Source: an uncultured Cytophagales bacterium
Lineage (GTDB): Bacteria > Bacteroidota > Bacteroidia > Cytophagales > UBA9547
DNA: 64,000 bases
Assembly: GCA_945957555.1 (NCBI GenBank)
Contig: CAMFLX010000004.1
Location: forward strand, 1-64,000
Reading direction: 5' to 3'
In this document: piece after piece, positions 5,802 to 41,857 of the stretch
How the letters are laid out: each line of letters opens with the position of its first letter
Position numbering within the stretch: the first letter of the stretch is position 1
Notes under the pieces: model-generated
The model's database searches: none
Seen by the model: the letters and a program-made list of their open reading frames with translations, nothing else
What the model was told of the DNA's origin: nothing
Position numbers and translations under genes: made by a program

Positions 5802-6311
5802 ATGGCTCAGTTAAAAGGAAAATTTATTAAAATGGTATCATTCCTTATGTTTCAGAAGGAATTACAAGCCGCAAATGCTTATTTAATGTCCAAATTAGGC
5901 AAGACACATCTTGAGTTGGAGGATGAATCTTGGTATGACGTAGCGATTTTTGACAAGTTTATGAAAACATGTGAGGAAAGCAGTGCTTTGAAAGATAAGA
6001 TCTATGTGAACATCGGCAAAAAAGTATATCCAACCATCAAAAAAACGGTAGGATTGCCAGAGCACTTGGATACACCTCTCAGTTATATACTGTTTGAGGC
6101 AGAAGGATTTTTGCAGAACCATCAAGGAGAAGGTGTAGTACCTCGGAAAATTATTAAATCATCACCAAAGGAAGTTGTTATAGAAGCAAAAGCTCCAGGC
6201 TACAATAGTAAGCTGTATGAGGGTGTATGGCTGGGTATGCTAGAAATGTGCGGGGTAACTACAGGAAAGGTAGAAAATAAAGGTAATGATGTGTTTATAA
6301 TTACTTGGTAA
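5802..6311 (+). CDS. Conserved hypothetical protein (possible V4R/HNOB-like fold; weak)
   Basis: Open frame with internal ATG at 5802 as likely start; C-terminal 'YEGVWLGMLEMCGVTTGKVENKGNDVFIITW'. Confidence 0.7.
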   Translation: MAQLKGKFIKMVSFLMFQKELQAANAYLMSKLGKTHLELEDESWYDVAIFDKFMKTCEESSALKDKIYVNIGKKVYPTIKKTVGLPEHLDTPLSYILFEAEGFLQNHQGEGVVPRKIIKSSPKEVVIEAKAPGYNSKLYEGVWLGMLEMCGVTTGKVENKGNDVFIITW

Positions 6312-6340
6312 ATAGAGTTTTGAGCTTTTTTAGGGGTTCA

Positions 6341-6380
6341 CAAAAGCCCTTTCGATCATGTAGATTGGAAAGGGCTTTTG
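6341..6380. terminator. Bidirectional intrinsic terminator between convergent genes
   Basis: CAAAAGCCCTTTC / GAAAGGGCTTTTG inverted repeat with flanking A/T tracts. Confidence 0.8.
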
Positions 6381-6385
6381 TATTA

Positions 6386-9300
6386 CTATTCCTCCAATAT
6401 CTCATTCTCTTCGCCATCGAGGAGTTGGAGTTTGCGGTAGTTTTCTTTAACGAAATTGCACCAGACACATTTGTCATCGCCACAACCTGTGTTGAAGTCG
6501 TGGTTTTGAATACCCTGCCATGCAGTGCGGATCTGTCCTTTCACGATCTCTATGCTGTCAAGGTCGGGCACGATCTTCTCACGAACGAATACATCGTTCT
6601 TTCTGGATTTCTCCACAAAGTCTACTATGCCATGTGCCATGGGGAATTTATATTTACTTGAGATCAACAAGATTTGGTAGAAGATCACTTGTCGCCAGAT
6701 ATCACCACCTAGTGGTTCTTTCTCTGTGGGGCGCCATAACTTCTTCATAGAATTATCAGGATTACCCGTTTTGTAGTCAACCACATAGGCTTGGTCGTTG
6801 GAGATCTCTATGTTGTCGAGCTTGCCAAAGAGTGGTATTTTCTCAAAATAACCCTTCATCTCCTTTTCTATATGGTAGAACTTGGTGGTGTCCCAAGTGT
6901 CTGCGTAGTTTTTATAGTATTCTTCTATGACTTTATAACCTTGTTGTCTGCGTTTTTCAAACTGACGTTCGTTGAAGGCAAACTTATAGCGATCTACCTG
7001 TCGCTCAAACTCCTCTTTTACAAAAGCATAACTAGGCACCTGCTTGTGTTCGTTGATGTACTCAAAGATCTCTTCGAGTACATTGTGGATCATGGATCCA
7101 AAGGCCAAAGCACTACTTTTCGCGGTAGGTACTTTGAGGACCTGTTCAAAATAAAAGCTCAGCTTACAGTTGAGATACCTATTTAAAGTAGTCGCACTGA
7201 GTGTAAAATTTTTGAGGGCTTCGTTAATAAGTCTTTTATCCAGAAACTCATCTTTTAGCACAGGTCTCTGGATCAGAGTGGTAAGGTATTGGTCTATCAG
7301 CGAGCTGTCACTCTCCTGAACAGGAAACTCGCGCTCGTTGCTGATGTTGTTTTCTATGGCAGTGACAAACTTGGAGGTAGTAAGTGGGGCCTCTTTACTT
7401 GTCGTGGCTTCAGTAAGTGGGATGCAAATATTAAGTTGTTGCTCTGCACGGGTCATAGCCACGTAAAAGAGACGACGCTGCTCCTCCTCTAAGTTAGCTT
7501 CTTTGGCGAGGTTTTCAGGAAGTTTGTAGGCATTGTTGGCACCTCTTTTCTTCTCCCAAGCGTTTTCTACGGCGTTGAGCAGGAATACGTATTTGTATTC
7601 CAAACCTTTGGAACTGTGTGCGGTACGCAGTTGCACCCCTTCCTCGTTGTTGATGATCTTCTCACAGCTGATCTTGAGGCCGTAGTTTTTCATGTCATCC
7701 AAGGTATACAAGAGGTTCTTGAGCCTATAGCGGCGTTCGTTTTGCGTTTCCTCCTTTACGAAGTTGAAAAAAGTCGCAATCACCTGCAGGTCGTTATGTT
7801 TGTTGTCCACATTATCAGCTCTGAATATGTATTGGTACATACCCATGCGGAGCAAAATCTCTTCCAAGAGTTCTTCCAGATTCAGGCTAAAGCTGAGCTT
7901 GATCAAATAATTCAGCGTGTCGGAGGTGTGGGAAATGGCCGCGGCGTTGTACACACCAATCTTGAGGAGCTTTTCTCTGTTGCCAATCACCTCTCGCCAG
8001 CGTTCCTCTTTATTATCTTTGATATGTCGGGCGATGTTGGCTACATCAGCTACATCTATATTCAGATAGTAATGGTGCAAGATCTCGAAGAGATACTCTT
8101 GGGCGTTGTCTACCCGACGTGTCTCCATGTCTATGTACTTGAGAATAGATACGATCTGTTTCACCAGCTTATGCTCCAATACATCTATGCCATAGCGTAC
8201 ATCGTAGGGGATCTTACGTTCGGTAAAGATCTTTACCAAGTTTATGGCCTCCTTGTGTTTGTTGTAAAGTATGGCAATGTCTTTATGAGAGACTCCATGG
8301 TTTTGTACCAAATCTTCAATTTCCTTCACCACCCCAAGGTCTTGGGCATATTGGTTGTGGTACTTGAGGAAACGTACCGGTTGTTGTTCTAGAGATTTGC
8401 CCTGCTGACTTTTAAAGGACTTGAGGCGCTTTTCGTAAGCTTCATTGTACAAGGGAGAATCTTTGAAATAATGCGCGAGACGTTCCTTATTTTCTGAAAT
8501 CAGTTTGTAAGACGCATTCAAAATCTCTTGATTGGATCGGTAGTTCCACTCTAGAGGAACGATGGAGAGGTTTTGGTATTCGTACTTTTCTATGAAGTTT
8601 TGAATGTTGCTGATGTCCGCACCTTGAAACCTGTAGATTGCTTGGTCTTCGTCACCTACCACAAACACGTTGGGCGAGTCCCAGTATTCGAGCAGTAGGT
8701 CAAGCAGTTGGATCTGGGTACCGTTGGAGTCTTGAAACTCGTCAACCAACACATATTGGTATTTTTCTTGATAGTCAGCGAGTAAGTCTTTGTCAGAAGA
8801 AAATGCTTTAAGTACGAAATTGATCATATCATCAAAATCGTACTTGCCCGTTTTCTGCATCTTGGTATTGTACAGATCAAAGGCCTCAGTGGCGGCGATC
8901 AGTTGATCGTAAGTTTTTTGCGCTTTGTCGTAGTCTTTCTGTTTGAAGTCTCCTTTTTTGAAATCCTTCCCATTGCGCTTGTAGTACATGTCCTCATTGT
9001 TCTGCAGGTCTTCAAGGCACTCCTTCACTTTGGTTTTGATAAAGTCTGAGGTCCAGCCCTCCTTTTTCATTGTACCAAAGAGGTTCTTGAGTTTGTTGAT
9101 GGTATTGGAGTAGTCGTCGGCAAAGGTCTTGATGGGACTGTGATTGTCCAGCTCCTCTACGATCTCAGAGCAAAGCTCATAAAACTCTATGTCTGAGATG
9201 CTATCGAGTTTAAAGCGCTCAGTAAACTTGGCTTTGTTTTCTTGAATGACTTGGTTACAGAAGCTGTGGTAGGTATGAATGTTGATACTGTAGGCGTCGG

Positions 9301-38003: not shown

Positions 38004-38030
38004 CGTTCAATCTAGTTGAATAGTCTAAAA

Positions 38031-38936
38031 ATGGGTACTTATAATAACACCTACACTTCACCCTTGGGTTTTTTAAAGAGTTTTGGACTCGAATACGAAA
38101 CATCTAATCTGAATTTACTCAAAAAGAAACTTTTGGCAGAACTTGACTTATCAGGAAAATCGACCATAACCATCAAAAACAAGGAATATACCAAACATGA
38201 TATTGTTAATATAGCAGACAATTTAAAGGATGTCAAAGATTTGAATTTCCACCAAGCAATTCTTGAAGATCCTTTTTTACTTGATTTCTTGGAGTTAACT
38301 ATTTTAAAGTATGATGGTAAAATTATTAAAAAGACCCTATATGAAGAAGGGCAATTTATTGATTGGGTAAGTCCTTATTTTTTAACTGCATATACACATT
38401 TCGCTCATCAGATCATGGCAAAGAATGATATGAGGGGTTGGCTTAAACTTGTCCAAATTCCCAAAATGATGACTGACAATGATATGGAGGCATCAAAGGA
38501 GTTTTTCCTAAAAACTATTAAGATAAGGAGAGATAAATTATTTAATATTATCTCTAAAAATGAAGTGACGGAAAACAGGGAATTAGTTCAATATCTTTGT
38601 GATAATAGGTTTTTAGATATGACAACCTATTTTACTCAGCCCGCCTTTTGTCAACTTAGGGATGACTTATCGGTCTTGGTAATGAAAACAGGGATTGTAT
38701 TTTTTAATAAAATTGATCAAGAAAAAGGTAAGGGATTATTAATAAGTGCAATTAATTGTGCCAACTCTAACCAAGTAAAAAACAAGATCAAGGAAAAGAT
38801 TAATAAAATAAAAAATATTGAACACTCAAAAACTAACCCAATAAAAACCATTGAAACATCCAACCCTTGGAATGTCGTTTTAGTAATTTTTCTTATTATA
38901 GGGGCAATAATAAGAATTACAGCCTGTCATAATTAA
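38031..38936 (+). CDS. Hypothetical helical protein with C-terminal TM (tail-anchored)
   Basis: C-terminal 'NPWNVVLVIFLIIGAIIRITACHN'. Confidence 0.8.
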   Translation: MGTYNNTYTSPLGFLKSFGLEYETSNLNLLKKKLLAELDLSGKSTITIKNKEYTKHDIVNIADNLKDVKDLNFHQAILEDPFLLDFLELTILKYDGKIIKKTLYEEGQFIDWVSPYFLTAYTHFAHQIMAKNDMRGWLKLVQIPKMMTDNDMEASKEFFLKTIKIRRDKLFNIISKNEVTENRELVQYLCDNRFLDMTTYFTQPAFCQLRDDLSVLVMKTGIVFFNKIDQEKGKGLLISAINCANSNQVKNKIKEKINKIKNIEHSKTNPIKTIETSNPWNVVLVIFLIIGAIIRITACHN

Positions 38937-38984: not shown

Positions 38985-41492
38985 TTAACTCAAACCAGTG
39001 CCCTTCATATGTTCGTCCTTTCCTTTGTCAATAAGTAATTCGTGCATTTGAGAAACTAGTGATAATATTTCATCAATGTTTTTTCTTTGTAATGCCTGAT
39101 CTCCTCTTTCTTTGAGCATCTTAAATCTTTCTGGATTTGAATACTCCTCTTCAGATTTTAATGCATAATGAGTATATACATAGATTACATAATTCAAATT
39201 TCGACGTTTTATTTCCCACGACAATTTATTAAGTTCCTCTGTTTTTCTCTTGATGAAATTTTTACCTCCTTTATCATTTATCCAATCACTTTCATTTGCT
39301 ACAATATTATCAAATCTTAGTCTATGTGATTCAAAACCTTCATTTTCAACAAAATGAAAACAATGACTTTTCATTTGATAATAATCCTCCTTAAGCATAA
39401 TTAATCTCTCATCTCCAGTTCCTTTGTCAATTAAGGTAGCCAATTTCCTTTTTTTGTCATCTATTTGATATTTCATATCCGTTGTATCATCCTCACTGAT
39501 TTGTGAGAGATCCATTTGTATATTTCTTAAATCTTCAGTGATCCTTTTTAAGACAGCCGCTTCTTCAAACTGATCCTTTTTGATCATAATATCCAATTGT
39601 TTGTTAGTAGTTCTGGATAAATAATCAATTTCTTCCTTAAGTCTAGTTACGTTTACAGATCTTGCGGATGGGCTAAAGACTTGTTTGAATTCCTGATCGA
39701 TCATGTTGATATAGGCAATCACTATGATGTCCCTACTTTCACTAATCTCAATACACAATTCGATATCACTACCTTTGATCAGATTTGTATGAAGATCCCT
39801 CCCTCTTATGGCGATCATTCCAATTGAAAGATTGCTTGTTGGAGCTGCATACCTGCTCCCTTCAAGAATATTAATGAGTAGTTGCTCCTCACTGCTTTTG
39901 GAAATTGATCTACTTAGGGTTTTTGTTATAGTTTTCTTTATAGGGAGAATTGCATTTTTTTCAAATATCAATTCAAGCTTTGTGGTGGTGTTCTCAACAT
40001 CATCAACCTCTAGACAGATGTCGTCTGGAAGTGGTTGGCCATATATCGAGAAATTGCCTTGAACGATAGCAATCTCTGGTATCTCAACCGCAATTTGCTG
40101 TTGCTGTGAATTGTAAATTTTTAATATGAATAAATTGAGTGTATGAGGAAGTAAAATTAACATTTCACTAATTCTTTCCTTTAATGGTTTGGTCCCACTA
40201 TCATAACCACCATCATCCCTTAAAATCCGATAAGTCATACCGGGTTTAGTGTTTTCAATGATGGCAGTAAAATATTCTTCTTTTTCCCTACTGTTTTTTT
40301 GGTAGGCCATTTTCACCTTTAAATTCTCTACCGAAGGTGATACAGTTTTGATTTTTGAATTTTCTTCTACATTTGTGGGTAATTGTTTGGTTTTGCTTCC
40401 CGCATAATAAGCTGCACCAATTACAACAGCAGTGGTTGGATCTACGCTACAATTGACATTGATCTCAAGTTGTTCTTGGATTAAATTCCTAATAAATGGT
40501 ATATAGGTACTCCCCCCGACCAATACAACTTCGTTGATGTCCTTTGAACTAAGTTGGTTGCGTTCAAGTAAATTTTTGATAAACTCGATTGAATATATAA
40601 TTTTTTCCTTGATAATATCCTCAAATTGATGCCTATGTATCGTAAAGATGATTTCATGAGATTCATCCTTTTGATCTTCAAATTCGAACTCAATTTCTAC
40701 ACTTTCTTTTGAACTAAGCATTATTTTTGCTTCCTCGGCTTTGTATAGTAATTTGTAATATAGCTTATTGTAAATTCCAGAGGCACTTTGCATCTTAGGT
40801 ATAAGATCATTTATTTGGAACTGACTTTCCAGATAAGGAACAATTATTTTTGTTACAATCAATTGATCAAAGTCCATACCGCCTAAAAAATTATCTCCTT
40901 CATGATCCACTACTTTGAGCTCCTCATGATCGATTTTTACAATGGCCACATCAAAAGTCCCACCACCTAAATCATACACTAGACGATTTCCAACAATTTC
41001 CTCTTCTTTTAGTTTATTAGCAAAAGCGAGACTGGCAGCTATCGGTTCTTGTAATAGTACAACTTCTTTAAAACCAGCCAAGTATCCTGCTTCTTTCGTG
41101 GCATTACTTTGGATGGTATTAAAACTTGCGGGTATTGTGATGACCACAGACTCAGGTACTTCTCCAGTATAAACAAAATTTTTAAGTTCTTGTAAAACTA
41201 TACTACTGAACGATATAGGAGATTTTGTTTCTTCAATATTGGGCACAAAATAGTTTTCATCAGTACCCATTTTTCTTTTGAAGCCTCCAAATACATTATT
41301 AGCATCTCTTTCCAGATATTCCTTCGCTTTGTCTCCCACTAATATTCGCTCTTTTCTAAAAGCAACTACACTAGGAAGTGTTTCTTTCATCCCCGAAGGA
41401 TTTCTAAAAACCTCTACTTGTCCATTAGTATATTTACCTATTAATGAGTTGGTTGTACCTAGGTCTATTCCGAAATTTATTGTTGATGACAT
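38985..41492 (-). CDS. Hsp70 family protein, divergent, with extended C-terminal region
   Basis: 'GIDLGTTNSLIGKY', 'VVITIPASFNTIQSNATKEAGYLAGF', 'YDLGGGTFDVAIV', 'VVLVGGSTYIPFIRNLI'. Confidence 0.95.
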   Translation of the reverse strand: MSSTINFGIDLGTTNSLIGKYTNGQVEVFRNPSGMKETLPSVVAFRKERILVGDKAKEYLERDANNVFGGFKRKMGTDENYFVPNIEETKSPISFSSIVLQELKNFVYTGEVPESVVITIPASFNTIQSNATKEAGYLAGFKEVVLLQEPIAASLAFANKLKEEEIVGNRLVYDLGGGTFDVAIVKIDHEELKVVDHEGDNFLGGMDFDQLIVTKIIVPYLESQFQINDLIPKMQSASGIYNKLYYKLLYKAEEAKIMLSSKESVEIEFEFEDQKDESHEIIFTIHRHQFEDIIKEKIIYSIEFIKNLLERNQLSSKDINEVVLVGGSTYIPFIRNLIQEQLEINVNCSVDPTTAVVIGAAYYAGSKTKQLPTNVEENSKIKTVSPSVENLKVKMAYQKNSREKEEYFTAIIENTKPGMTYRILRDDGGYDSGTKPLKERISEMLILLPHTLNLFILKIYNSQQQQIAVEIPEIAIVQGNFSIYGQPLPDDICLEVDDVENTTTKLELIFEKNAILPIKKTITKTLSRSISKSSEEQLLINILEGSRYAAPTSNLSIGMIAIRGRDLHTNLIKGSDIELCIEISESRDIIVIAYINMIDQEFKQVFSPSARSVNVTRLKEEIDYLSRTTNKQLDIMIKKDQFEEAAVLKRITEDLRNIQMDLSQISEDDTTDMKYQIDDKKRKLATLIDKGTGDERLIMLKEDYYQMKSHCFHFVENEGFESHRLRFDNIVANESDWINDKGGKNFIKRKTEELNKLSWEIKRRNLNYVIYVYTHYALKSEEEYSNPERFKMLKERGDQALQRKNIDEILSLVSQMHELLIDKGKDEHMKGTGLS

Positions 41493-41515
41493 TTTTGTTG
41501 CAATTTATTGTAGAA

Positions 41516-41827
41516 TTATTCAACTATCACGATTCCTTTCTGTATCAAAACTGGCTTTCCTTCTTGAATTTCATAAATAATAGGCTTGATTACGTCACAA
41601 ATTTTTTGATTTTCAGAAGTAGGATTAATCAAAGTGGCTTCAATATCTGTTCTTGTTTCTGAGAAAGCTTCACCCGATGGATTTATTACGAGTAGACCTC
41701 CTTCTTCTATAACAGTCTTCATTCTGTTTACGTTTCTAATAAGAGGCGAAAACGATTCCTGTGTTAGTACCTTTTTCTCTGTTTCAAATACTATATTTGC
41801 AATTTTTATCAAGCTTAGATTTGACAT
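41516..41827 (-). CDS. Putative minimal GrpE-like nucleotide exchange factor
   Basis: 'VIEEGGLLVINPSGEAFSETRTDIEATLI...PIIYEIQEGKPVLIQKGIVIVE' resembles the GrpE beta-domain; directly upstream of hsp70. Confidence 0.65.
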   Translation of the reverse strand: MSNLSLIKIANIVFETEKKVLTQESFSPLIRNVNRMKTVIEEGGLLVINPSGEAFSETRTDIEATLINPTSENQKICDVIKPIIYEIQEGKPVLIQKGIVIVE

Positions 41828-41849: not shown

Positions 41850-41857
41850 CAAATATA
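41850..41857 (-). promoter_or_regulatory. -7-like box upstream of the GrpE-like/hsp70 unit
   Basis: TATATTTG on minus strand, 23 nt before the start. Confidence 0.5.

Follow-up and report, generated by a model that had tools for sequence, protein, structure and literature searches.

A candidate membrane-linked cassette of a divergent Hsp70, a small GrpE-like protein and a third protein in Bacteroidota

Accessory Hsp70 systems and the cassette of the window

GrpE (PF01025) is the nucleotide exchange factor of DnaK. To our knowledge, both dependence on a J-domain protein, by way of the R167/HPD contact, and a hydrophobic linker are treated as near-universal in Hsp70 biology.

We analyzed a window, namely the whole stretch of 64,000 nucleotides of DNA from an uncultured Cytophagales bacterium, in which three genes encoding an Hsp70, a small GrpE-like protein and a membrane-anchored third protein form a cassette. 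The small protein is similar to GrpE in its predicted beta-domain fold with two preceding short helices, and its gene lies directly upstream of an Hsp70 gene; however, it is 103 aa long versus about 190, has no long coiled coil, stays below Pfam detection and is not the partner of a housekeeping DnaK operon.

The pairing of a second GrpE with a second DnaK is found in Myxococcus xanthus, where MXAN_6672 is co-transcribed and interacts with MxDnaK2 (PMC11019930). Unlike the window proteins, both are canonical members, whose interdomain linker is nearly identical, and a third membrane protein is not described in the part of the source consulted (PMC11019930). The GAP1-N2 GTPase conflict systems, too, include an accessory Hsp70 and a GrpE of its own within a cluster that looks mobile, although these systems are mainly actinobacterial or firmicute and come with GTPases and DnaJ-domain proteins, none of which was seen in the cassette (PMC7159879). 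The CnuD proteins of CoCoNuT systems are likewise accessory NBD/SBD proteins of the Hsp70 type that lie outside proteostasis operons; they have been described with degenerate ATPase motifs and McrBC-type partners (PMC11090510), whereas the present family has invariant motifs and McrB was not seen with it. Similar architectures were those of Haliscomenobacter plasmid pHALHY02 and of proteobacterial plasmids (L267, L268, L275-L278), in which a Hsp70 of ~830 aa follows a hypothetical protein of 114-123 aa or a membrane-anchored GrpE-like protein; however, these Hsp70s are only 25-35% identical, and AAA ATPase, TerB, CFI-box or peptidoglycan-binding proteins replace the third protein. In the literature searched no description of the three-gene cassette was found, which is not proof of absence.

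The Hsp70 gene (38985..41492, minus strand, 835 aa), recognized by Pfam HSP70 and motif alignment, is preceded by the gene of the small protein (41516..41827, minus strand, 103 aa), identified by AlphaFold2 (AF2), Foldseek and locus pairing as the upstream member of the pair; the coordinates, sizes, strand and 23-bp spacing of these ORFs in the initial annotation were exact. The third gene (38016..38936, plus strand, ~300 aa; family recurrence, AF2 and hydropathy scan), which may start at TTG 38016 or ATG 38031, is convergent with the Hsp70 gene at 48 bp. A Bacteroidota-type -7 box, TATATTTG, can be read directly at 41850..41857 on the minus strand, 22 nt 5' of the ATG of the small gene, in agreement with the initial annotation; a TAnnTTTG match within 120 nt upstream of the small gene was present in only 19 of 91 relatives, and the TATATTTG box is thus not a conserved feature. 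Rfam gave no match over 34-46 kb of the window.

Canonical DnaK, GrpE and J-domain genes were found elsewhere in the genome (6.25 Mb, 413 contigs), distinct from the pair as the initial annotation had proposed: the one GrpE above cut-off is on C252 with a J-domain gene alongside, DnaK is on C52, and there are several J-domain genes. The window pair is hence additional. The idea that the small gene is a duplicate of the canonical GrpE was rejected, the sole GrpE above cut-off being on another contig.

A predicted GrpE-type fold beside a divergent Hsp70

The AF2 model of the small protein (alignment of 79 homologues; pLDDT 92.1, pTM 0.82) consists of two helices (3-21 and 27-42) followed by six strands. 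In the model these helices match the short dimerisation-bundle helices of GrpE in number and order, the protein begins at the first of them, and the long N-terminal coiled-coil helix of GrpE is absent. When the model was compared with the PDB using Foldseek, ranks 1 to 12 were all GrpE, from human mitochondria (GrpEL1), M. tuberculosis, T. thermophilus, Geobacillus and E. coli (best probability 1.00, E=4.9e-3, TMq 0.58); no match had E<=0.001, and rank 13 was unrelated with a probability of 0.06. The likeness to the GrpE beta-domain, first proposed from the letters of the DNA, was thus recovered by structure comparison, and the claim that the long dimerisation helices are lacking holds for the N-terminal coiled coil, but two N-terminal helices are modelled. 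We conclude that the small protein has a predicted GrpE-type fold.

Sequence comparisons gave a fainter signal. Neither Pfam nor NCBIfam, PF01025 included, matched the window protein, and a PDB search with the HMM of the small family retrieved no GrpE. The alignment of the small family to GrpE by hhalign was weak (3.3%; 1 of 80 column shuffles as high) and had the register already given in the initial annotation; a plasmid relative of the small protein reached E=0.057 against PF01025, below cut-off. Taken from sequence alone, the relation to GrpE is suggestive. The best-conserved part of the protein is the beta-domain, with invariant P50, D61 and P82.

A sister family of ~300-aa proteins, with an apparent signal peptide, a coiled coil, a TM segment and a C-terminal domain like the small protein, was aligned to the small family with a probability of 96.7% (hhalign, E=3.4e-10) and to GrpE with 20.6% (P=0.0011; none of 78 column shuffles as high), and one of its members matched almost the whole Pfam GrpE profile (E=0.0057, below cut-off). 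By these profiles the sister family bridges the small family and Pfam GrpE, and homology of the small protein to GrpE is probable, without formal Pfam membership. Genes of the sister family were located upstream of a related Hsp70 in L093, L113, L114, L115, L116 and L267. The L267 protein, on pHALHY02, is annotated as 'septum formation initiator', and in L114 (7295-12283) one membrane GrpE-like gene is followed by two related Hsp70 genes in tandem.

The Hsp70 itself is divergent. Pfam HSP70 matched only residues 6-367 of 835 (E=3.7e-70), and the housekeeping dnaK equivalog of NCBIfam, TIGR02350, gave 234 bits against a cut-off of 822.55. The protein is arranged as an NBD (about 6-365), an extra segment of ~100 aa, a putative SBD-beta-like region (about 480-610) and a probably helical C-terminus; the SBD-beta register comes from hhalign of the window protein to a single DnaK, that of the same genome (P=0.003). 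All ATPase motifs checked were invariant in the 98 aligned homologues: GIDLGTTNS (first position G/A), K72 and R73 (KR.G), E149 and DLGGGT.D (DLGGGTFD). PADLOC gave for this protein only a weak match to PDC-M61B (E=0.001, in the NBD region) and called no model. In one relative (L035, 6541-9010) the Hsp70 gene is split into ORFs of 632 and 178 aa and is followed by a TerB-domain gene at 5970-6464; TerB was present in 5 of 100 loci.

Positions equivalent to R167, N170 and T173 of E. coli DnaK, listed among the residues for DnaJ binding or ATPase stimulation (PMC4022485), were occupied in the 98 aligned proteins by V/L/F, by Q (97/98) and by I/V (98/98), respectively. The hydrophobic interdomain linker of the DVLLLDV type is absent family-wide, with ~100 aa of other sequence between the NBD and the SBD-beta-like region. 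Judged by these residues, the family seems to have lost the usual DnaJ docking site. The NBD-IB helix, which contacts GrpE (PMC10803776), carries family-specific charges, E58 in 90 and K/R62 in 91 of the 98 sequences, while the housekeeping DnaK of the same genome has R and T at these positions; read at the residue level, this would look like the pattern of a dedicated partner pair.

The third protein, conservation of the cassette and its mobility

A set of 100 loci with distinct Hsp70 sequences was used to study the conservation of the cassette. The small gene was directly upstream of the Hsp70 gene and on the same strand in 94 of them, with a median gap of 12 bp (50 bp or less in 77 loci), and the pairing is therefore more than chance. 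The six exceptions were two contig ends, one locus whose small gene lies 4.5 kb upstream, and the loci of the three Hsp70s that diverge most (L110, L111 and L112), which have full contig context and no recognisable small or third gene. Three genomes contained close relatives of the small ORF, in each case 5' of the same type of Hsp70. When the ORFs within 7 kb of the Hsp70 genes of the 100 loci were clustered, the only recurrent neighbours were the small family (87) and the third family (82), the next-best cluster reaching 12 loci. The dedicated ATPase/exchange-factor pair of the initial annotation is hence a conserved one, but the module is a three-gene cassette, in which exchange would be the putative role of the small protein; as for the earlier statement that no J-protein gene is adjacent, the third protein has no Pfam DnaJ match, but a third conserved gene does adjoin.

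Profile searches placed the third family within 2 kb of the Hsp70 gene in 83 of the 100 loci, downstream on the opposite (36) or the same strand (29) and upstream on the same (14) or the opposite strand (4); in the other 17 it was absent or unrecognised. A hydropathy scan predicted one C-terminal TM segment in the window protein, at about ORF residue 287, with a short tail after it, and 74 of 101 third proteins have such a segment, typically near residue 260-300, with either a short tail or an additional, presumably extracytoplasmic, part beyond it. The conserved part of the family is the N-terminal ~100 aa. AF2 modelled residues 1-170 as helical with one hairpin (pLDDT 89.1), and a Foldseek search of the PDB with this N-terminal domain returned no match and no J-domain. 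PHROGs had no match for either the small or the third protein. Tandem copies of the third gene, two or three beside a single Hsp70 gene, were observed in L130, L131, L133, L135, L136, L138, L163 and L181, mostly from Chitinophaga.

A J-domain in the third gene had looked plausible by eye (NPYEVLEL...KKAKRRKLAEF). Third proteins were aligned to J-domains by hhalign in groups defined by gene orientation only, with column shuffles as the null; the signal appeared in one subgroup, which is not that of the window, and the candidate was set aside. In this subgroup, the 14 sequences encoded upstream, helices I-II were aligned with a score of 20.6 (maximum of 79 shuffles, 15.8) at a probability of 16%; in the other two subgroups, including that of the window, shuffles reached the observed score in 14/80 and 45/80 cases. 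The HPD motif is absent in 113 of 114 third proteins.

A profile built on the part of the Hsp70 that follows the NBD retrieved relatives from 16 of 342 genomes in the same order, from 23 of 345 in the class and from 13 of 396 in a sample of the phylum. In the GTDB genome collection it retrieved 176, and the best 80 of these 176 were nearly all from Bacteroidota, the exceptions being Crenothrix and one Caenarcaniphilales bin. The cassette is thus patchily spread through Bacteroidota. The three proteins have strongly correlated distance matrices (r 0.80, 0.79 and 0.65; none of 999 Mantel permutations as high), a result consistent with co-inheritance, and common descent of linked genes would also yield such a correlation.

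The GC content of the cassette, 0.327 versus 0.380, is the lowest of any stretch of equal length in the window. Relatives of the same family retain the 687-aa upstream neighbour at 33-40% identity and have no other window neighbour near its homologue, so that an insertion of the cassette is not demonstrable by synteny. Outside Bacteroidota, a complete cassette of the window type was found on pSDM007 of Pseudomonas hygromyciniae (L266, 6522-11502), a conjugative, IncP-typed plasmid; it encodes a third-family protein with TPRs, a mini-GrpE and a Hsp70 that is 42% identical.

More distant plasmid Hsp70s follow a 114-123-aa gene whose relation to the small family is detectable in several cases; their partners include AAA ATPases, in one case as a fusion with a kinase domain, as well as TerB, CFI-box and peptidoglycan-binding proteins, and their neighbours Tn7-like transposition genes, ZorA, BrxL and restriction, Fic or toxin-antitoxin genes. 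In Haliscomenobacter pHALHY02 (L267, 1366-8891) a CFI-box protein, the membrane GrpE-like protein, the Hsp70, a protein kinase-AAA fusion and TerB adjoin brxL, while in the proteobacterial plasmids L268, L275 and L276 the mini-GrpE-like protein and Hsp70 are accompanied by an AAA ATPase and further hypothetical or peptidoglycan-binding proteins, the L268 cluster being beside Tn7-like TnsD/TnsE and that of L276 near ZorA. These defence and transposition neighbours are a lead to a conflict role, not evidence for the window cassette. In Bacteroidota, PADLOC showed no clear difference between 117 near and 117 far flanking genes (counts that are not per protein), clustering over the 100 loci gave no recurrent nuclease or toxin-like effector beside the cassette, and phage and viral collections held no relative of it.

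Possible mechanism and alternative readings

On balance we favor a dedicated, horizontally mobile, membrane-linked three-component Hsp70/mini-GrpE machine, in which the third protein would be a recruiter or activator replacing the J-protein. Such a machine would work at or near the inner membrane, where the third protein, anchored by its single TM segment, may recruit the Hsp70 or deliver clients through its cytosolic helical domain and possibly substitute for a J-protein in the stimulation of ATP hydrolysis. The Hsp70, whose ATPase motifs are observed, would hydrolyse ATP and close on the client, and the coupling of its domains would pass through the extra domain because the normal linker and the DnaJ-docking residues are gone. 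Given the fold and the pairing, the mini-GrpE is quite likely the exchange factor of the adjacent Hsp70: its beta-domain would dock on NBD IB and IIB and open the cleft for ADP to leave. In the complex from M. tuberculosis, the main contact of GrpE with the NBD is that of its beta-domain with IB and IIB, and the long helix, which touches NBD IA/IIA and the SBD, is important for the release of substrate (PMC10803776). Since the long N-terminal helix is missing, the mini-GrpE is predicted to promote nucleotide exchange and not helix-driven substrate release.

That same missing helix could mean that the small protein binds the Hsp70 through its GrpE-type fold without any exchange, as a tether or inhibitor that holds the Hsp70 with the membrane protein. 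G122 of the GrpE bundle helix, moreover, aligns in the hhalign register to non-glycine residues in the small family, a G122D change inactivates E. coli GrpE (PMC10825016), and the sister family fuses its GrpE-like domain behind a TM segment and a coiled coil. We nevertheless consider this unlikely: the beta-domain, the major NBD contact of canonical GrpE, is the best-conserved part of the small protein, and with intact ATPase motifs the Hsp70 presumably uses nucleotide turnover. Improbable to a greater degree is a disguised but otherwise ordinary K/J/E triad, in which the third protein would be a highly divergent J-domain protein minus its HPD. Its position, its membrane anchor and a helix order that resembles a J-domain (AF2) would suit a J-protein, and the upstream subgroup aligned to J-domain helices I-II above all 79 shuffles; but that alignment had a probability of only 16% and the other two subgroups, the window's included, show nothing, Foldseek found no J-domain, HPD is missing in 113 of 114 sequences and the Hsp70 is without the J-contact residues.

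The third protein might instead be a dedicated client, kept soluble or inserted by the Hsp70 and mini-GrpE as a private folding machine. Such an arrangement is expected to place a single chaperone beside two or three third-gene copies, as in L130 and L181, and the extracytoplasmic C-terminal part is variable or absent; nonetheless, the conserved N-terminal ~100 aa resemble a binding module and the divergence of the third protein tracks that of the Hsp70 (r=0.79), as expected of a partner, and we regard a client as not very likely. A role of the third protein as recruiter or activator, and not as client, is offered with some reserve, at slightly less than even confidence. A role of the cassette in an anti-phage or other conflict system appears rather unlikely as well, even if its distribution is patchy (16/342 genomes of the order, 23/345 of the class), its GC the lowest in the window, its plasmid relatives lie by Tn7-like TnsD/TnsE, ZorA, BrxL and restriction, Fic or toxin-antitoxin genes, and GAP1-N2 conflict systems are reported to contain pairs of HSP70 and GrpE (PMC7159879): immediate flanks were not clearly richer in defence genes than farther ones (PADLOC, not countable per protein), neither a recurrent nuclease or toxin-like effector nor relatives in phage or viral collections were found, and the window neighbours are housekeeping genes.

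The membrane-linked Hsp70/mini-GrpE machine may tentatively be extended, with more doubt than belief, to a class of Hsp70 without J-domain control, where an unrelated, membrane-anchored family would trigger the ATPase, an inserted domain would couple the domains and a stripped-down GrpE would reset the cycle, in a cassette that crosses phyla. A Hsp70 family with intact ATPase motifs, no J-contact residues or linker and its own GrpE-like protein makes it testable what else triggers a Hsp70, and the pairing with a mini-GrpE makes it testable which part of GrpE suffices for nucleotide exchange. The analysis also provides a hypothesis of function for two families, the small and the third proteins, left as 'hypothetical protein' in the databases consulted.
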